From Candidatus Rokuibacteriota bacterium (GTDB taxonomy: Bacteria > Methylomirabilota > Methylomirabilia > Rokubacteriales > CSP1-6), in assembly GCA_003221515.1 (NCBI GenBank), contig QHSI01000114.1, positions 1-41,307 on the forward strand: DNA of 41,307 bases. Reading direction: 5' to 3'. The notes beneath the pieces are model-generated. The model did not search any database. It saw nothing but the letters and a program-made list of their open reading frames with translations, and was not told the DNA's origin. A program made the position numbers and the translations under genes. Of this stretch, positions 35,137-41,307 are shown in pieces; position 1 is the first letter of the stretch, and every line of letters starts with the position of its first letter.

Positions 35137-35220
35137 ATGGCTGGGTTTCGCTGTGCGAAGTGCGGGAAGGTCGCGATGGCCCAGAAGATCTGCTGCGGAC
35201 GCCCTATGAAGCGCTCCTAG
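35137..35220 (+). CDS. Desulforedoxin-like 27-residue microprotein
   Basis: A short frame with a good ribosome site (GGAGGG 4-5 bases before ATG). The product has Cys6-x2-Cys9, then Cys19-Cys20 and Gly (FRCAKCGKV ... ICCGRPM). This is the pattern of desulforedoxin and the N-terminal domain of desulfoferrodoxin, which bind one iron through four cysteines. Desulforedoxin has about 36 residues and a longer loop, so this would be a minimal form; a zinc-binding peptide is the alternative. It follows the thiolase by 21 bases. Its stop TAG overlaps the stop of the opposing kinase gene in a shared CTAG. Confidence 0.6.
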   Translation: MAGFRCAKCGKVAMAQKICCGRPMKRS

Positions 35221-37538
35221 ACGGCGGCGAGTGCGTCCTGGATCGCGGCGTCGAGCTCGTTGATCCGGACGGGCTTGAAGAGACACTTGCGGATCCGGAG
35301 CGACTTGAGCCGCCCGTGGTCCTCCTCGCGCAGCCCCCAGCCCGTGATCAGCAGGATGGAAGTCTGGGAATCGACCCGGCGGACCCGCTCGGCGAGCTCC
35401 CAGCCGTTGATGCCGGCCATCCCTAGATTGCTCAGCACCACGTCGAACCGGCCGGGCGCGTAGGCGGCGAGCCCGGCGCCGCCGCCGGCCGCGGCGGTCA
35501 CCGTGTGGCCCACGCTGCGCAGCTGCTCGGTCAGCGTGCCGAGCACCTTCTGATCGTCGTCCACCAGGAGGACCCGCGCCGGCCGTCGCGCGCGCCGCAG
35601 CGCCGTGTCGGGCGCGGCGCCCACCGGCTCGCTGGCGACCGGGAAGGTGAGGGTGAAGGTGGCGCCCCGCGCCGGTTCGCTCTCGACGCGGATGTCGCCG
35701 CCGTGCCGTCGCACGATCGAGTAGACCATCGACAGGCCCAGGCCGGACCCGGAGTCGCCCTTGGTCGAGAAGAACGGCTCGAAGATGCGCCGCCGGACCG
35801 GCTCCGGCATGCCGATGCCGGTGTCGGTCACCGTCAGCACGATGTGGCGCCCGAGGTCGCTGCGGGTGTCGATCGTCAGCGTGCCACCGTCGGGCATCGC
35901 GTCGAGGGCGTTCAGGATCAGGTTCGTCAGCACCTCGATCAGCGCCGGCGGCCGCCCGTTGATCGTCTCGATGGTCCCGAGGTTCAGCCGCAGATCGAGC
36001 GGTCGGTTGTCACGCGCGATCTTTTCTTCCCAGCGCGGGCGGATGAGCGCGACGGCGTCGTGGACGATCTGGTTCAGGTCCACGCCGACCGGCGGCTCGT
36101 CGGGGCGCAGGCGCGCGAACTGCTGGATGCGGCGCACCGTCTCGGAGCCGTCGACTGCCGCCGCCTCGACGATGTTGAGCGAGCGGCTGACGAACTCGGC
36201 GTCGCGTGGGTTCTGCTTCATGAGCTGCGCGTAGCCGAGGATCGCCTGCAGAAGGTTGTTGAAGTCGTGCGCGATCCCGCCCGCGAGCTGCCCGAGCGCG
36301 GTGAGCTTCTCGGCCCGCCGGTGCTGGGTCTCGATCTCACGCTGCGCGGTGATGTCGCGGACGATCGCGATCAGCCCCTCGAGGCCACCCTGCCGCCCGT
36401 GGCGGGCCGACAGGCTCACCGCGAGCTCCACCGGGCGGGCCTGGCCGACCGTGACGCTGGTCTCGAAGGCGTGGCGGTCGGTGCCGTCGGCAAGCTGGCG
36501 CTTCGCTTCGCCGTAGTCACCGCGCGGGAGCAGCTCGGTGATGGGCCGGCCGTTGGCCTGCTCGGCGGTGAGACCGAAGATACGCTCGGCGGCCGGGTTC
36601 CAGATGCGCCCCTCGATGCGATCGTCCGGCGAGACCGAGATGATGGCGTCGCCGGCGGAGGCGATGAGCTGCTCGAGCGAGCGCTTCGTGTCGGTGATCT
36701 CGCCGTAGAGGCGTGAGTTCCGGAGCGCGATGGCCAGGTATTCGGAGAGCATCTCGAGCAGCTCACGCTCGCGCGGATCGATGACCCGCCGGGACGGCCG
36801 GTTGTCGATCAGCAGGTAGCCCAGCAGGCCGCCGCCGTCCTGGATCGCGCACGTCATGACGGTCGGCGGGCCCTTGTCGGCGCTCTGGGGCGGCTCCGGG
36901 ACGATTTCGACCTTGTCGTAGCCGAGCGCGGTCCGAAGCTGCTCGGTGACGGAGGCGGCCAGGCGCTGCGGATCGAGCTGCTCGACGATCGTCCGCGAGA
37001 TCTCCCGAACGATCGAGAGCTGAGTGACCCGGAGCGACTGCTCGGCCGCTTCGCGGCGGGCCGCCTCCTCGAGCTTCCCGGAGTTGGCCGAGAGCTGGCG
37101 CATTTCCTCCACCAGCTTGGCGACCTGGCCGCGCGCGCCGAGCTCGGTCTGGCGCCGCAACAACGCCCGGTGGACGACGTCTTCCAGATCCGCGCGCGAG
37201 AACGGCTTGATGAGGTACTCGAAGGCACCGTGTGTCAGCGCGTGCTTGACCGTCTCCAGCGAGGCGTAGGCGGTGATCATCACGACTTCGATCGCCGGAT
37301 CGGCGCGCTTGACGTGGCGGAGGAGCTCGAGCCCGTCCATCTCGGGCATCTTGATGTCCATGATGACGACGTCGGGCTGGAACCGCCGGAGATGGTCGAG
37401 GGCCACGCGCCCGTTCTCGGCCGTCTGGATCTGGTAGTGGGGCTTGAGCAGCATGCGCAGCGACTCGCGCGGACCGAGCTCGTCGTCCACGACGAGAACC
37501 CGCGCGAGCGGTGAAACCGCGGTGACCGCCATGCTCAT
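35217..37538 (-). CDS. Hybrid histidine kinase (REC-GAF-PAS-HisKA-HATPase-REC)
   Basis: A 773-residue soluble protein. The first receiver covers about 12-125 (phospho-Asp61, Lys111). A coiled segment (130-175), a GAF-like domain (175-280) and a PAS domain (285-400) follow. The HisKA His424 lies in GGIAHDFNN. The HATPase has Asn543, DTGIGM at 572-577 and GSGLGLSMVYSIV at 597. The last receiver (655-770) keeps its acidic pocket and Lys755, but has Asn704 (VVLSNLGM) where the phospho-acceptor Asp belongs. Its ATG overlaps the stop of the pseudokinase gene, and it is last in the three-kinase operon. Confidence 0.93.
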   Translation of the reverse strand: MSMAVTAVSPLARVLVVDDELGPRESLRMLLKPHYQIQTAENGRVALDHLRRFQPDVVIMDIKMPEMDGLELLRHVKRADPAIEVVMITAYASLETVKHALTHGAFEYLIKPFSRADLEDVVHRALLRRQTELGARGQVAKLVEEMRQLSANSGKLEEAARREAAEQSLRVTQLSIVREISRTIVEQLDPQRLAASVTEQLRTALGYDKVEIVPEPPQSADKGPPTVMTCAIQDGGGLLGYLLIDNRPSRRVIDPRERELLEMLSEYLAIALRNSRLYGEITDTKRSLEQLIASAGDAIISVSPDDRIEGRIWNPAAERIFGLTAEQANGRPITELLPRGDYGEAKRQLADGTDRHAFETSVTVGQARPVELAVSLSARHGRQGGLEGLIAIVRDITAQREIETQHRRAEKLTALGQLAGGIAHDFNNLLQAILGYAQLMKQNPRDAEFVSRSLNIVEAAAVDGSETVRRIQQFARLRPDEPPVGVDLNQIVHDAVALIRPRWEEKIARDNRPLDLRLNLGTIETINGRPPALIEVLTNLILNALDAMPDGGTLTIDTRSDLGRHIVLTVTDTGIGMPEPVRRRIFEPFFSTKGDSGSGLGLSMVYSIVRRHGGDIRVESEPARGATFTLTFPVASEPVGAAPDTALRRARRPARVLLVDDDQKVLGTLTEQLRSVGHTVTAAAGGGAGLAAYAPGRFDVVLSNLGMAGINGWELAERVRRVDSQTSILLITGWGLREEDHGRLKSLRIRKCLFKPVRINELDAAIQDALAAV

Positions 37539-39484
37539 GCCGTCGCGAGTGGGAGCGACACCAGGAAGTGCAGCTCGTGCCGGCCCTGCCGCACCGTCAG
37601 CTGTCCGCCGACCGCTTCGACGAGACGCTGACTGACGGCCGGCCCGACGTCGAGCAGGCTCTCCTGGACCATCTCCACCGGATCGAAGACACGATGGAGC
37701 TTGTCGGGCGCGACGGACGCCGTGCGCGAGCCGATCAGGATCCGCACCATCTCGCCGCTGTCACGCTCGGAGTGCCGCGCCACCGACACCGAGACGCGCG
37801 CCTGGTCGTCCGGCGAGTTGTGCGCGAGATACCAGATGAGGTACGAGAACGCCTTGCGGAGGTGCGCGGGATCGACCTTCACGACTTGCGGCGTGGTCTC
37901 GCGCGTGACGTCGAGCTGCAGCGGCTTGGCCGGCAGATCGTCGACGAGCTCGATCGCCGTGACCACATCATCGACGACGCTGTGGATGTCCACGGTCGTA
38001 AAGTTTAGCTCACCTTCCGTCACCAGCCCTGCAAGTTTCTCGAAAACCTCGACGAGCCGCCGGACGTCCCGGCGGACGACCGAGGAGAAGTGACGGCGGA
38101 ACTCCGGGTCGTCGTACCGCTCGCCGATCAGCTCGATGAAGGTGTTGATCGAGACGAGCGGATTCTTGATCTCGTCGGCGATGCGGGCCACCACGCGCGT
38201 GAGGAGCTGGGTCTGCTCGACCTGCCGCCGCTGCGTCAGCAGCTCTTTCTGCGACGTGCGGTCTTCGAAGACGAGCACGGCGCCGAGCGGCGTCCCGTCC
38301 TCGCCGCGCACCGGATAGGTGGAGACCTCGAGCCAGAGGCCGCGCAGCGCGAGCTGGATCTCGTGCCGGGCCGCCGCGCGCCCCGTCCGCAGGGTGTCGT
38401 AGAGCATGTCGCCGAGCGGCGACGGCAGCGCGCGCAGATCCTGCTTCATGACCTCGCCGGCCGACAGCTCCAGGATCTCCTCCGCCCGACGATTCATCGT
38501 GGCGATCCGGTGGTCGCGGCCGATCGTGATCACGCCGCTCGACATGTGGGCCAGAATGCGCTCGCTGAACTGCTGCTCGCGCTCGAGCCGGTTGTGCAGG
38601 GCGATGTCGCGGATCGCGGTGGCCAGGTGCGATCCGAGATCGAAGAGCGTCTCGGTCTGGCTCCGGCCGTAGCTCGAGCCGACGACGGGCTGGCCGACGG
38701 TGAGAATCGCCACCAGCTCGCCGTGGGCCAGCAGCGGCACCGCCAGGACGCTCTGGAGCAGTCGGAGCTCGCGCGCGACTTCCGGATCCGGCAGGTCTTG
38801 CAGCCGGGCCGGCCGGCCCTGCGCGGCCAGCCAGCGGGCGAGGCCCTGGCCGGCCGAGAGGTGCACGCCGCCGACGATCTGGGGCACGAGACCACGGTGA
38901 GTCGCCACGCGGTACTCGGCCGGGTCGCCGGCGGGCAGGAGCAGGGCCATGCGCGTTGGCCGGACCAGCTCGCCGATCGCGTCGAGGAACATTTCGAGCG
39001 CCCGTGGCAGGTCGAAGCCGGCCGCGAAGGCCCGTGTGAATTCCCGGAGCACCCGGGCGAACGCGACGCCTTCCCAGGGCTGGTCCGGCCCGGCGGTGCC
39101 CGGGTGATCGGGTGCCAGACTGGACCGAAGCCCAGTAATTTCCCGCGTCAGCCTCAACTTGTCAGTTACGTGACGCAGGGTCCCGTCGAGTTCGCGCTGC
39201 GTGAAGGTGGCGGGGAGGACGAGATCGGCCGCCTCGGCCTCCTCACCGGTCACGCCGATCGCGATCGTGAGCGTCGAGGGGGCAATCTGCTTCACGCTCG
39301 CGACGAACGTCTCGAGGCCCCTGGGCATGCCCCCGCCGCGCAGGATCACGTCGATGTCGATGAGCCGGAGCGTCTTCAGCGCTTCCGGATCGCTCTGGGC
39401 GACGAACACTGAATGGTCACCCAAGGCCGAGACGAGGCGTCCGCGCAGCGCGTCGTCGGCCGTGACGATGAGGATGGTGTTCAC
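37535..39484 (-). CDS. Degenerate sensor histidine kinase (pseudokinase)
   Basis: A 649-residue protein: receiver-like domain (1-115), GAF (140-298), PAS (303-412), HisKA-like (418-490) and HATPase-like (500-649). The receiver has Gly50 at the phospho-Asp place, and ATFTQ where the Lys belongs. The dimerisation motif reads RIADEIKNPLVS, so Asp437 (GAC, 38176-38174) replaces the phospho-acceptor His of the usual HEIKNP. The ATP domain lacks a convincing N box (YLIWYLAHNSPDD), DxGxG (IGSRTASV) and GxGLGL. All three active sites are lost while the frame is intact, which suggests a kept structural or regulatory role. It starts at GTG 39484 inside the stop of the upstream kinase. Confidence 0.88.
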   Translation of the reverse strand: MNTILIVTADDALRGRLVSALGDHSVFVAQSDPEALKTLRLIDIDVILRGGGMPRGLETFVASVKQIAPSTLTIAIGVTGEEAEAADLVLPATFTQRELDGTLRHVTDKLRLTREITGLRSSLAPDHPGTAGPDQPWEGVAFARVLREFTRAFAAGFDLPRALEMFLDAIGELVRPTRMALLLPAGDPAEYRVATHRGLVPQIVGGVHLSAGQGLARWLAAQGRPARLQDLPDPEVARELRLLQSVLAVPLLAHGELVAILTVGQPVVGSSYGRSQTETLFDLGSHLATAIRDIALHNRLEREQQFSERILAHMSSGVITIGRDHRIATMNRRAEEILELSAGEVMKQDLRALPSPLGDMLYDTLRTGRAAARHEIQLALRGLWLEVSTYPVRGEDGTPLGAVLVFEDRTSQKELLTQRRQVEQTQLLTRVVARIADEIKNPLVSINTFIELIGERYDDPEFRRHFSSVVRRDVRRLVEVFEKLAGLVTEGELNFTTVDIHSVVDDVVTAIELVDDLPAKPLQLDVTRETTPQVVKVDPAHLRKAFSYLIWYLAHNSPDDQARVSVSVARHSERDSGEMVRILIGSRTASVAPDKLHRVFDPVEMVQESLLDVGPAVSQRLVEAVGGQLTVRQGRHELHFLVSLPLATA

Positions 39485-41307
39485 GTCGCCACCGTGGCCA
39501 CGACGGCGAGCGGGAAATCGATGGTGAAGGCAGCGCCGCCGTCGTCGCGGTTGGCAGCCCGGAGCCTGGCGCCGTGAGTCTGGGCGATGGAGGCACAGAT
39601 CGCCAGTCCGAGTCCGGAGCCGCGCTCCTTGGTGGTAAAAAACGGGTCGAACACGCGCTCCAGAATCCCCGCCGGGATACCGCCCCCAGTGTCCACCACG
39701 GCGACAGTAGCATGGTCGGCCCTGACGGCTAGCTCTATCCGCACCATGCCGCCCGGCGGCGTTGCCTCGTGCGCGTTCATCAAAAGATTCAAGAACAGCT
39801 GCTCGAGCTCCGAATGATCGCCCAGGATCAGGCACGGCGATGGGCCCGGCGCCGAGGAGACGACGACGTTCTTCTCCGTGAACGCCGGCCCCATGGCTTC
39901 GATCGCTTCGGCGATCGGTGCCCGTAGATCGAGCAGATGACGCGGGCGTTCGCCGGGGCGCGAGAGCGTGCGCAGACGGTCGAGGAGCCGCTCCATTCGT
40001 CCGATCTCGCGCGTGACGATCCGGCCGAAGTCGTCGATGAACCGATCGTCGCCGCGCCGGCGCGGCAGGAGCTGGGCAAAGGTCTTGACCGAGACGAGCG
40101 GGTTTTTGATCTCGTGCGCGATCCCGGACGCGAGCATCTCGAAATACGCGAGCCGTTCGGCGCGGCGCCGCTCCACTTCGAGCTCCTTGAGCGGCGTCAG
40201 ATCGCTGAAGACCGCGACGGCGCCCAGCACCACGCCGTCTGGGTCGTGCAGCGGCGACGTCGCGCAGATGATCGGCCTCGTCGTCTTGCCGTCCGACAGG
40301 CTGATCTCCGGCTGCGTCCGCGCGTTGCCGTCGACCACGGTCTCCGTGAGCATCTCCCGCACGTCCGCCGGCAGCACGCTCACCGACTGATGCCGAACGC
40401 GTTCCGCCGGCAGGCCGGTGAGCTGCTCGGCGGCGCGGTTGAACAGCGTGATCTGGCCGGCGGCGTCGACCGCCACCACGCCGCTCTCGATCGTGGCGAC
40501 GATGTTGTTGAGGTGCTCGTTGGCCAGCACGACCTGCGCGTAGAGCTGCGCGTTCTTCACCGCGATCCCGGCCTGGTTGGCGAGCGTCATCAGGAGGTCG
40601 AGATCCTGAGGGTAGAAGGGATCGCCGGAGAGCTTCGGTCCGACGACGATGGCGCCGATGACCCGATTCTCAGAGATGAGCGGCAGCACGAGCGCCCAGT
40701 TGAGGCGCGCCAGCGCGTCGTGCAGCCGCTGCCGCTCGTCGGTCAGCCGTTCACGCGCGATCTCGTCGGTGAGCAGCAGATCCTTCGAGCGCATGAGCGC
40801 CGTGATGATCTCGCCCGGCGCGTCGTCCGGCGTCTCGAAGCTGCTCTGCGCGAGGCGTTTCTCCGCGATCGCCTGGCGAAACGCTCCGCCGGACTCGGCG
40901 AGATTTCGGTCGAGGTAGACGGCGGCGCCTTCGGAGTTCGTCGAGGCCGCCACGGTGTGGTTCATGAACTGCAGCAGGATCTTGAGATCGAGGACACCCG
41001 TCAGGGCGCGACTCGCCTCCCGCAGGGTGCGCTGGTAGTTCACGTGCGTGCGATAGACGTATCGATCCAGCAGCCGCCCCGCCGCATCGCGCGTCAACGG
41101 AATCAGCAGACCGACCGCGACGACCGCGGCGATCAGCGCGACGAGCTCCTCGGGATTCAGGTGATCCGAGAGCCTGGGCCACGCCATCGCCAGCAACGCC
41201 ACGACCGGCACGAGCGACACGGCCAGCGCGAGAGTCAGCGTGAGCCCGCGATGGATCACGAGGCGAACATCCATCAGCCGATGGCGGATGATGGCGTGCG
41301 CGACCAT
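39481..41307 (-). CDS. Membrane sensor histidine kinase (5' end beyond window)
   Basis: The 608 residues seen run from the right edge. The first residues (AHAIIRHRLMDVRLVIHRGL) are the kind of sequence that follows a multi-helix membrane region in 7TM-type sensor kinases, so the Met at the edge is probably internal. Two more membrane helices (about 22-43 and 55-72), a GAF domain (95-255), a PAS domain (265-370), HisKA with His398 (GIAHEIKNPL) and an HATPase (Asn511, DTGGGI at 539-544, GSGLGL at 563-568) follow. All catalytic motifs are intact. It is the upstream member of the three-kinase operon and closely resembles the kinase part of the pseudokinase next to it. Confidence 0.92.
   Translation of the reverse strand: MVAHAIIRHRLMDVRLVIHRGLTLTLALAVSLVPVVALLAMAWPRLSDHLNPEELVALIAAVVAVGLLIPLTRDAAGRLLDRYVYRTHVNYQRTLREASRALTGVLDLKILLQFMNHTVAASTNSEGAAVYLDRNLAESGGAFRQAIAEKRLAQSSFETPDDAPGEIITALMRSKDLLLTDEIARERLTDERQRLHDALARLNWALVLPLISENRVIGAIVVGPKLSGDPFYPQDLDLLMTLANQAGIAVKNAQLYAQVVLANEHLNNIVATIESGVVAVDAAGQITLFNRAAEQLTGLPAERVRHQSVSVLPADVREMLTETVVDGNARTQPEISLSDGKTTRPIICATSPLHDPDGVVLGAVAVFSDLTPLKELEVERRRAERLAYFEMLASGIAHEIKNPLVSVKTFAQLLPRRRGDDRFIDDFGRIVTREIGRMERLLDRLRTLSRPGERPRHLLDLRAPIAEAIEAMGPAFTEKNVVVSSAPGPSPCLILGDHSELEQLFLNLLMNAHEATPPGGMVRIELAVRADHATVAVVDTGGGIPAGILERVFDPFFTTKERGSGLGLAICASIAQTHGARLRAANRDDGGAAFTIDFPLAVVATVAT

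Follow-up and report, generated by a model that had tools for sequence, protein, structure and literature searches.

How can a histidine kinase serve a cell if it has lost the residues for phosphorylating itself and stands between two kinases that have kept theirs? This question is raised by a locus on a stretch of 41,307 nucleotides of a Candidatus Rokuibacteriota soil bacterium (contig QHSI01000114.1; the whole stretch is referred to below as the window), to which Candidatus Rokubacteria/Rokuibacteriota MAGs are the closest records. Few pseudo-histidine kinases are understood, and the passage from an active kinase to a dead one is seldom visible. The genes concerned are:

35217..37538, minus strand: downstream hybrid kinase DN (receiver-GAF-PAS-HisKA-HATPase-receiver); H, N, G1, F and G2 boxes kept
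37535..39484, minus strand: pseudo-histidine kinase gene PSK (649 aa, GTG start; 48 orthologues)
39481..41307, minus strand: upstream membrane histidine kinase UP, C-terminal 608 aa; H, N, G1, F and G2 boxes all kept

Sequence, fold and conservation of PSK

The reading frame of PSK is free of stops and of frame damage. GAF, PAS and HisKA domains were detected with Pfam above the cut-off, HATPase_c only below it (17.2 bits vs the Pfam cut-off of 26.4). An AlphaFold2 model built from 32 orthologues (mean pLDDT 82, pTM 0.45) folds into receiver-like, GAF, PAS, DHp and ATP-domain-like parts, the DHp as two helices (410-456 and 460-488); the low pTM makes the predicted arrangement of these domains unreliable. 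Foldseek matched the core of the model to histidine kinases (e.g., 4u7n, TM 0.83 by target length), which confirms only the general histidine-kinase core and adds nothing about function. No membrane domain was found in PSK. Its parts are as follows (all on the minus strand):

39125..39484: degenerate receiver-like domain, residues 1-120 (alternating beta/alpha in the AlphaFold2 model, pLDDT ~87; sequence match to receiver structures)
38612..39013: GAF domain, residues 158-291 (Pfam PF01590, 34.1 bits)
38246..38563: PAS domain, residues 308-413 (Pfam PF08448/PF00989)
38009..38215: DHp (HisKA) helical hairpin, residues 424-492 (Pfam PF00512, 28.7 bits)
38174..38176: codon of Asp437, at the position of the phospho-accepting His (Asp in 48/48 Rokubacteriales, His in 4/4 Latescibacterota)
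38162..38164: codon of Asn441, without variation in 52 of 52 sequences; HisKA phosphatase activity depends on this position (PMC3510030)
37538..37897: degenerate catalytic/ATP-binding-like domain, residues 530-649 (HATPase_c below cut-off; fold retained in the model)

The phospho-accepting His by which a HisKA-type histidine kinase is recognised is thus replaced by Asp437 (sequence context RIADEIKNPLVS) throughout the Rokubacteriales; among HisKA domains at large it is absent from 0.9% (PMC12632262). The N-box (NL..NA) has become SYLIWYL, the G1 box (DTGxGI) GSRTASV and the G2 box (GxGLGL) LDVGPAV, and the FDP of the F-box is retained. The N, G1 and G2 boxes are gone from 52 of 52 sequences (48 Rokubacteriales and four Latescibacterota). 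The combination of HisKA and HATPase_c domains is present, the latter as a fold in the model with a sequence score below the cut-off. On this sequence evidence, PSK was shown to lack the normal requirements for autophosphorylation, i.e. the His and the Asn/Gly boxes. The initial annotation, which had described an intact frame without the phospho-His and the ATP boxes, was correct in this respect for all 48 Rokubacteriales orthologues.

The same annotation had counted the missing phospho-Asp of the receiver as one of three losses, and this part did not hold. At position 50 of the receiver-like domain, Asp is found in 28 of 45 orthologues, and Gly is limited to the genus of the window (8 of 45). 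The standard acidic pair (Mg-binding residues) is absent from every orthologue and the Lys is seldom retained, so the N-terminal domain of PSK does not have the set of residues (acidic pair, phospho-Asp, Thr/Ser, Lys) of a receiver (PF00072). The pair is missing as well in the receiver-like domains of active kinases of the PVC group (see below). Since the loss of the Asp is not family-wide and the receiver is degenerate in relatives with an intact kinase, the three losses were not one event, and their coupling was rejected for the receiver. As judged from these residues, the degeneration of the receiver is older than, and separate from, the losses of the kinase motifs.

The 48 Rokubacteriales orthologues show about 38-94% identity. 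D437, E438 and N441 do not vary among them, and Asp437 is followed in all 48 by the stretch E-[IV]-K-N-P-L-V-S. The DHp is the most conserved part, with 21 of 69 columns invariant and a mean commonest-residue fraction of 0.87 (0.93 near the H-box), as compared to 0.78 for PAS, 0.74 for GAF, 0.68 for the ATP-like domain and 0.61 for the receiver-like domain. The mean pairwise identity of the DHp is 0.81 in PSK, 0.77 in DN, 0.64 in UP and 0.60 in HK1, a further kinase of the operon. Omega values, obtained for 11 close pairs from Nei-Gojobori counts with a custom script and without a likelihood test, were 0.06-0.23 for the whole of PSK, 0.03-0.34 for the ATP-like domain and 0-0.11 for the DHp, which is under the strongest constraint in the protein; the PSK values were similar to or lower than those of the active neighbours. 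Furthermore, new residues have become conserved at the old ATP site (Y548, Y552, S586, T588, V613-G614-P615, Q619), and with such a pattern of its own the domain is not merely decaying.

These values speak for strong purifying selection on PSK. The annotation had taken motif loss without frame damage as a sign of a selected role and had proposed to compare dN/dS and residue 437 across orthologues; the low omega, the invariant Asp and the conserved operon bear it out. It had also named a recent mutation or a sequencing error as grounds on which the idea would fall, but relatives with the His and a full ATP domain were found only in distant phyla. Combining a kept fold, lost catalytic functions and selection, as expected of a pseudo-histidine kinase, PSK is confirmed, at the level of predicted function, as a histidine kinase without catalytic activity that selection has retained.

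Operon, distribution and origin

In the window, UP is truncated by the end of the contig; its full form is a 7TM kinase of ~820 aa. UP and DN keep every kinase motif in the genomes compared, in line with the annotation's description of active-looking kinases on both sides. The UP/PSK and PSK/DN junctions in the window are overlaps of 4 bases each, as is usual in orthologous loci. Where contigs suffice, the genes usually run on a single strand from the FabF-like synthase through one or two 7TM kinases (HK1, UP) to PSK and DN; HK1 and FabF lie outside the window, as the contig ends within UP. In many Rokubacteria (L064, L065, L068, L072-L075, L071) the FabF-like synthase has Gln in place of the second catalytic His (KSMCGQ for KSMxGH) and keeps the Cys and one His; the second His is kept in L066, L067, L069 and L057. 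The enzyme regulated by the operon may itself be altered. HK1 of genomes of family f1 (L064, L066, L044 and others) belongs to two distinct lineages, one of them long-branched, which may reflect repeated gain or replacement.

DN possesses two receivers:

37173..37499, minus strand: N-terminal receiver of DN, proposed PSK target; phosphorylation residues intact
35226..35582, minus strand: C-terminal receiver of DN, a pseudo-receiver; Asn704 (codon 35427-35429) replaces the phospho-Asp

In those Rokubacteriales and Latescibacterota sequences that cover the region, the first receiver shows DDE, KPF and the phospho-Asp (L078 has Gln for the Glu). With regard to a possible direct descent of this receiver from the NtrC receiver of the other phyla, the mean identity is 0.37, but a further receiver nearby (L049) reaches 0.42. 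The second receiver has Asn in all f1 orthologues that are long enough and Asp in 4 of 4 Latescibacterota; the domain is absent in family f4, and in family f2 the contig ends before it. The lineages without the His in PSK are thus those without a working second receiver. This correlation represents essentially one split between phyla and is suggestive only.

Of the 60 genomes of the order of the window, 48 carry PSK (46 in f1, one each in f2 and f4). It turned up in none of the 35 genomes searched in the rest of the phylum, but in four of the 64 Latescibacterota genomes searched. The main matches scored at least 565 bits, other kinases and fragments at most 258. Five f1 genomes with DN and without a full PSK match (G004, G013, G027, G089, G090) are all cut by contig ends, and in two of them the C-terminus of PSK is still visible. 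Six further f1 genomes and G036 have no PSK and no strong match to DN either. No genome had DN in continuous DNA without PSK, the apparent gaps lying at contig ends. As far as the assemblies show, PSK and DN are therefore kept or missing together.

In six loci of the PVC group (L049, L050, L051, L054, L055, L056), the operon consists of FabF, a 7TM kinase, a second kinase and an NtrC-type regulator (in L049 an extra 7TM kinase precedes FabF; in L051 the contig breaks off within the regulator). This arrangement is common to Verrucomicrobia, Kiritimatiellae and Lentisphaerae. The second kinase has a receiver-like/PAS layout, with GAF detected in some cases only; its H, N, F and G2 boxes are intact and G1 is intact or near-intact. 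In the tree, PSK of Rokubacteriales and Latescibacterota forms one clade (100/100), away from UP and beside the PVC second kinases (92/96); the latter do not form a single clade, since L049 joins PSK at 98/91. A recent tandem duplication of UP as the source of PSK is excluded, because the clade groups with the second-position kinases of other phyla. The orthology of the PVC kinases to PSK is based on position, layout and a moderately supported branch. PSK goes back to the second kinase in an old operon encoding a FabF-like synthase, a 7TM kinase, a receiver-like-GAF-PAS kinase and a response regulator. The PVC second kinase resembles PSK in operon position, in the receiver-like/PAS/DHp/ATP-domain layout and in its place in the tree; unlike PSK, it has intact kinase motifs and is followed by an NtrC-type sigma-54 activator rather than by a hybrid kinase.

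Latescibacterota PSK has kept the His and lost N, G1 and G2, whereas in Rokubacteriales PSK the replacement of His by Asp is added to the loss of these boxes. The simplest reading of these sequences would be that the ATP boxes were lost first and then the His. One operon position is thus found in three states across phyla (all motifs, His only, neither), so that the intermediates can be expressed and compared.

Proteins adjoining an NtrC regulator in Myxococcota/Deltaproteobacteria (L058:6582-8663, L059:8001-8495, L060:6551-8642) have a DHp with His and NPLVS and a degenerate ATP domain, that of L058 also a partial sigma-54 AAA domain; they are possibly another pseudokinase family.

Possible modes of action

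PSK probably controls signalling by docking on a partner or by removing its phosphate, and not by adding phosphate. We tentatively favour the explanation that PSK docks via its DHp on the N-terminal receiver of DN and promotes the loss of its phosphate, receiver docking being the more likely part and actual phosphatase chemistry the less likely one. PSK would fold and dimerise through the DHp helices, and the invariant face of helix alpha1 (D437, E438, N441) would dock on a phosphorylated receiver, which, to go by gene order, is most likely the intact N-terminal receiver of DN. The phosphate would then be lost in the manner of RetS acting on GacS, with Asp437 and Asn441 placing the water, at a time set by the GAF and PAS sensor domains. 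UP would load the receiver and PSK unload it, and DN activity would be set by two signals.

In histidine kinases at large, receivers make contact with helix alpha1 of the DHp around the H-box. In PSK this is the invariant surface (around D437-N441), and it speaks for the receiver of DN no less than for UP. Other points in favour are that, among the DHp domains of the four kinases, that of PSK is conserved best, that the first receiver of DN is intact and that PSK and DN are retained together. HisKA phosphatase activity, in contrast to kinase activity, needs Asn or Thr at the H+4 position (PMC3510030), where PSK has its invariant Asn441; phosphatase activity is thereby predicted at most. In addition, the phosphatase motif DxxxQ of CheZ and NarX has an acid and an amide four residues apart (PMC3510030), and Asp437xxxAsn441 has the same spacing. 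RetS, whose HATPase domain is degenerate, acts as a transmitter phosphatase, with the receiver of hybrid kinase GacS as its substrate (PMC5992135). This precedent, together with the invariance of N441 and the spacing of D437, favours receiver docking with phosphatase action on the first receiver of DN.

Several observations speak against the phosphatase part. Nucleotide in the ATP domain stimulates HisKA phosphatase action (PMC7005713), and the His is helpful for it, though not essential (PMC12632262); PSK has neither the nucleotide-site motifs nor the contributing His. Glu at H+1 is needed for HisKA kinase but not phosphatase activity (PMC3510030). The invariance of Glu438 must therefore have another cause. 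The DivL protein of Caulobacter crescentus has Thr at the H+4 position. It keeps its DHp, yet is without phosphatase activity (PMC4211667).

A bolder scenario would be a stepwise conversion within one operon (active, His only, His to Asp) into an ATP-independent receiver phosphatase, in which Asp437-xxx-Asn441 converged on DxxxQ of CheZ/NarX, the phospho-Asp of the second DN receiver was lost in the same order and the phosphate route was rewired; we regard it as speculative and rather unlikely.

Among the alternatives to receiver dephosphorylation, the most serious one, albeit doubtful, is that the DHp of PSK binds the phosphorylated receiver, leaves it unchanged and relays the signal allosterically to DN, Asp437 being a non-phosphorylatable docking residue. 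Indeed, DivL, itself neither kinase nor phosphatase, binds DivK~P and governs the hybrid kinase CckA (PMC4211667), and PSK adjoins a hybrid kinase with an N-terminal receiver. However, the residue in DivL varies (Tyr; Ala in one species) whereas the Asp of PSK is fixed, DivL retains the N, G1, F and G2 boxes, of which PSK has lost all but F, and the operon contains no separate DivK-like receiver.

We consider it unlikely that PSK, along the lines suggested in the annotation, pairs with UP (or HK1) in heterodimers and holds back or adjusts its autophosphorylation, without itself acting on any receiver. The conserved adjacency with 4-base overlaps would favour co-production, the GAF-PAS-DHp-ATP-domain layout is common to UP and PSK, native ChrS and HrrS form heterodimers (PMC9491836), and RetS inhibits GacS autophosphorylation (PMC5992135). 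However, the DHp domains of UP and PSK are only about 35% identical, the two proteins belong to separate lineages (PSK of Rokubacteriales and Latescibacterota forming a clade apart from UP), and UP is a 7TM protein while PSK has no detected membrane domain. Moreover, the invariant residues would lie on the receiver-facing H-box rather than at known dimer contacts.

Still less probable is a passive scaffold or decoy whose only part is to bring the receiver or the kinases together and to gate signalling by way of GAF/PAS ligands; conservation of the H-box would then reflect folding. GAF and PAS are still well conserved and the general fold persists, but folding alone would leave a fixed Asp at a solvent-facing position unexplained, and the DHp of PSK is more conserved than those of the active kinases. 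Finally, a non-functional relic, a recent mutation or pseudogene, or a sequencing or assembly error deserves practically no credence in spite of the lost catalytic motifs, being ruled out by 48 concordant genomes, the low omega, the undamaged frame and the conserved operon.

Comparison with known systems

Dead histidine kinases are already known: RetS, DivL and engineered ChrS. New, to our knowledge, are an Asp fixed together with the complete loss of the ATP boxes throughout an order, syntenic intermediates in other phyla and an accompanying pseudo-receiver. A literature search revealed no Asp-for-His histidine kinases, a weak result, as subscription journals were mostly outside its scope. 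With Asp fixed in place of the phospho-His, the family is a natural case in which one can ask directly if HisKA domains devoid of the His may serve purely as phosphatases. Besides, pseudokinase and pseudo-receiver occur in one operon, both phospho-sites being missing in the lineages without the His.

The truncated ChrS pseudokinase of Corynebacterium glutamicum is similar to PSK in being kinase-dead and acting with a paralogous kinase (PMC9491836). Unlike PSK, it arose from a laboratory-evolved frameshift in the ATP domain and is not an inherited family, and its His is retained but dispensable.

DivL, which acts with DivK and CckA in C. crescentus, shares with PSK the clade-wide replacement of the phospho-His and is a PAS-DHp-ATP-domain protein tied to a hybrid kinase (PMC4211667). 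PSK does not show the features of DivL, i.e. Tyr or Ala at the His position and the kept N, G1, F and G2 boxes; DivL also reads a free receiver and, as mentioned above, is no phosphatase.

RetS of Pseudomonas aeruginosa, acting on GacS, has like PSK a degenerate ATP domain without G-boxes (PMC5992135). It has retained the phosphatase residue of the H-box, as has PSK, and acts on a hybrid kinase, as proposed for PSK. Nevertheless, PSK is not a RetS protein, which is characterised, besides the degenerate ATP domain, by an intact HExxT, including the His, and by C-terminal receivers; PSK has DExxN (DEIKN) and no C-terminal receiver. It differs also in its receiver-like/GAF/PAS domain order and in that the proposed partner is its neighbour in the operon. 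The Latescibacterota orthologues of PSK, in which the His is kept, are nearer to RetS in that respect.
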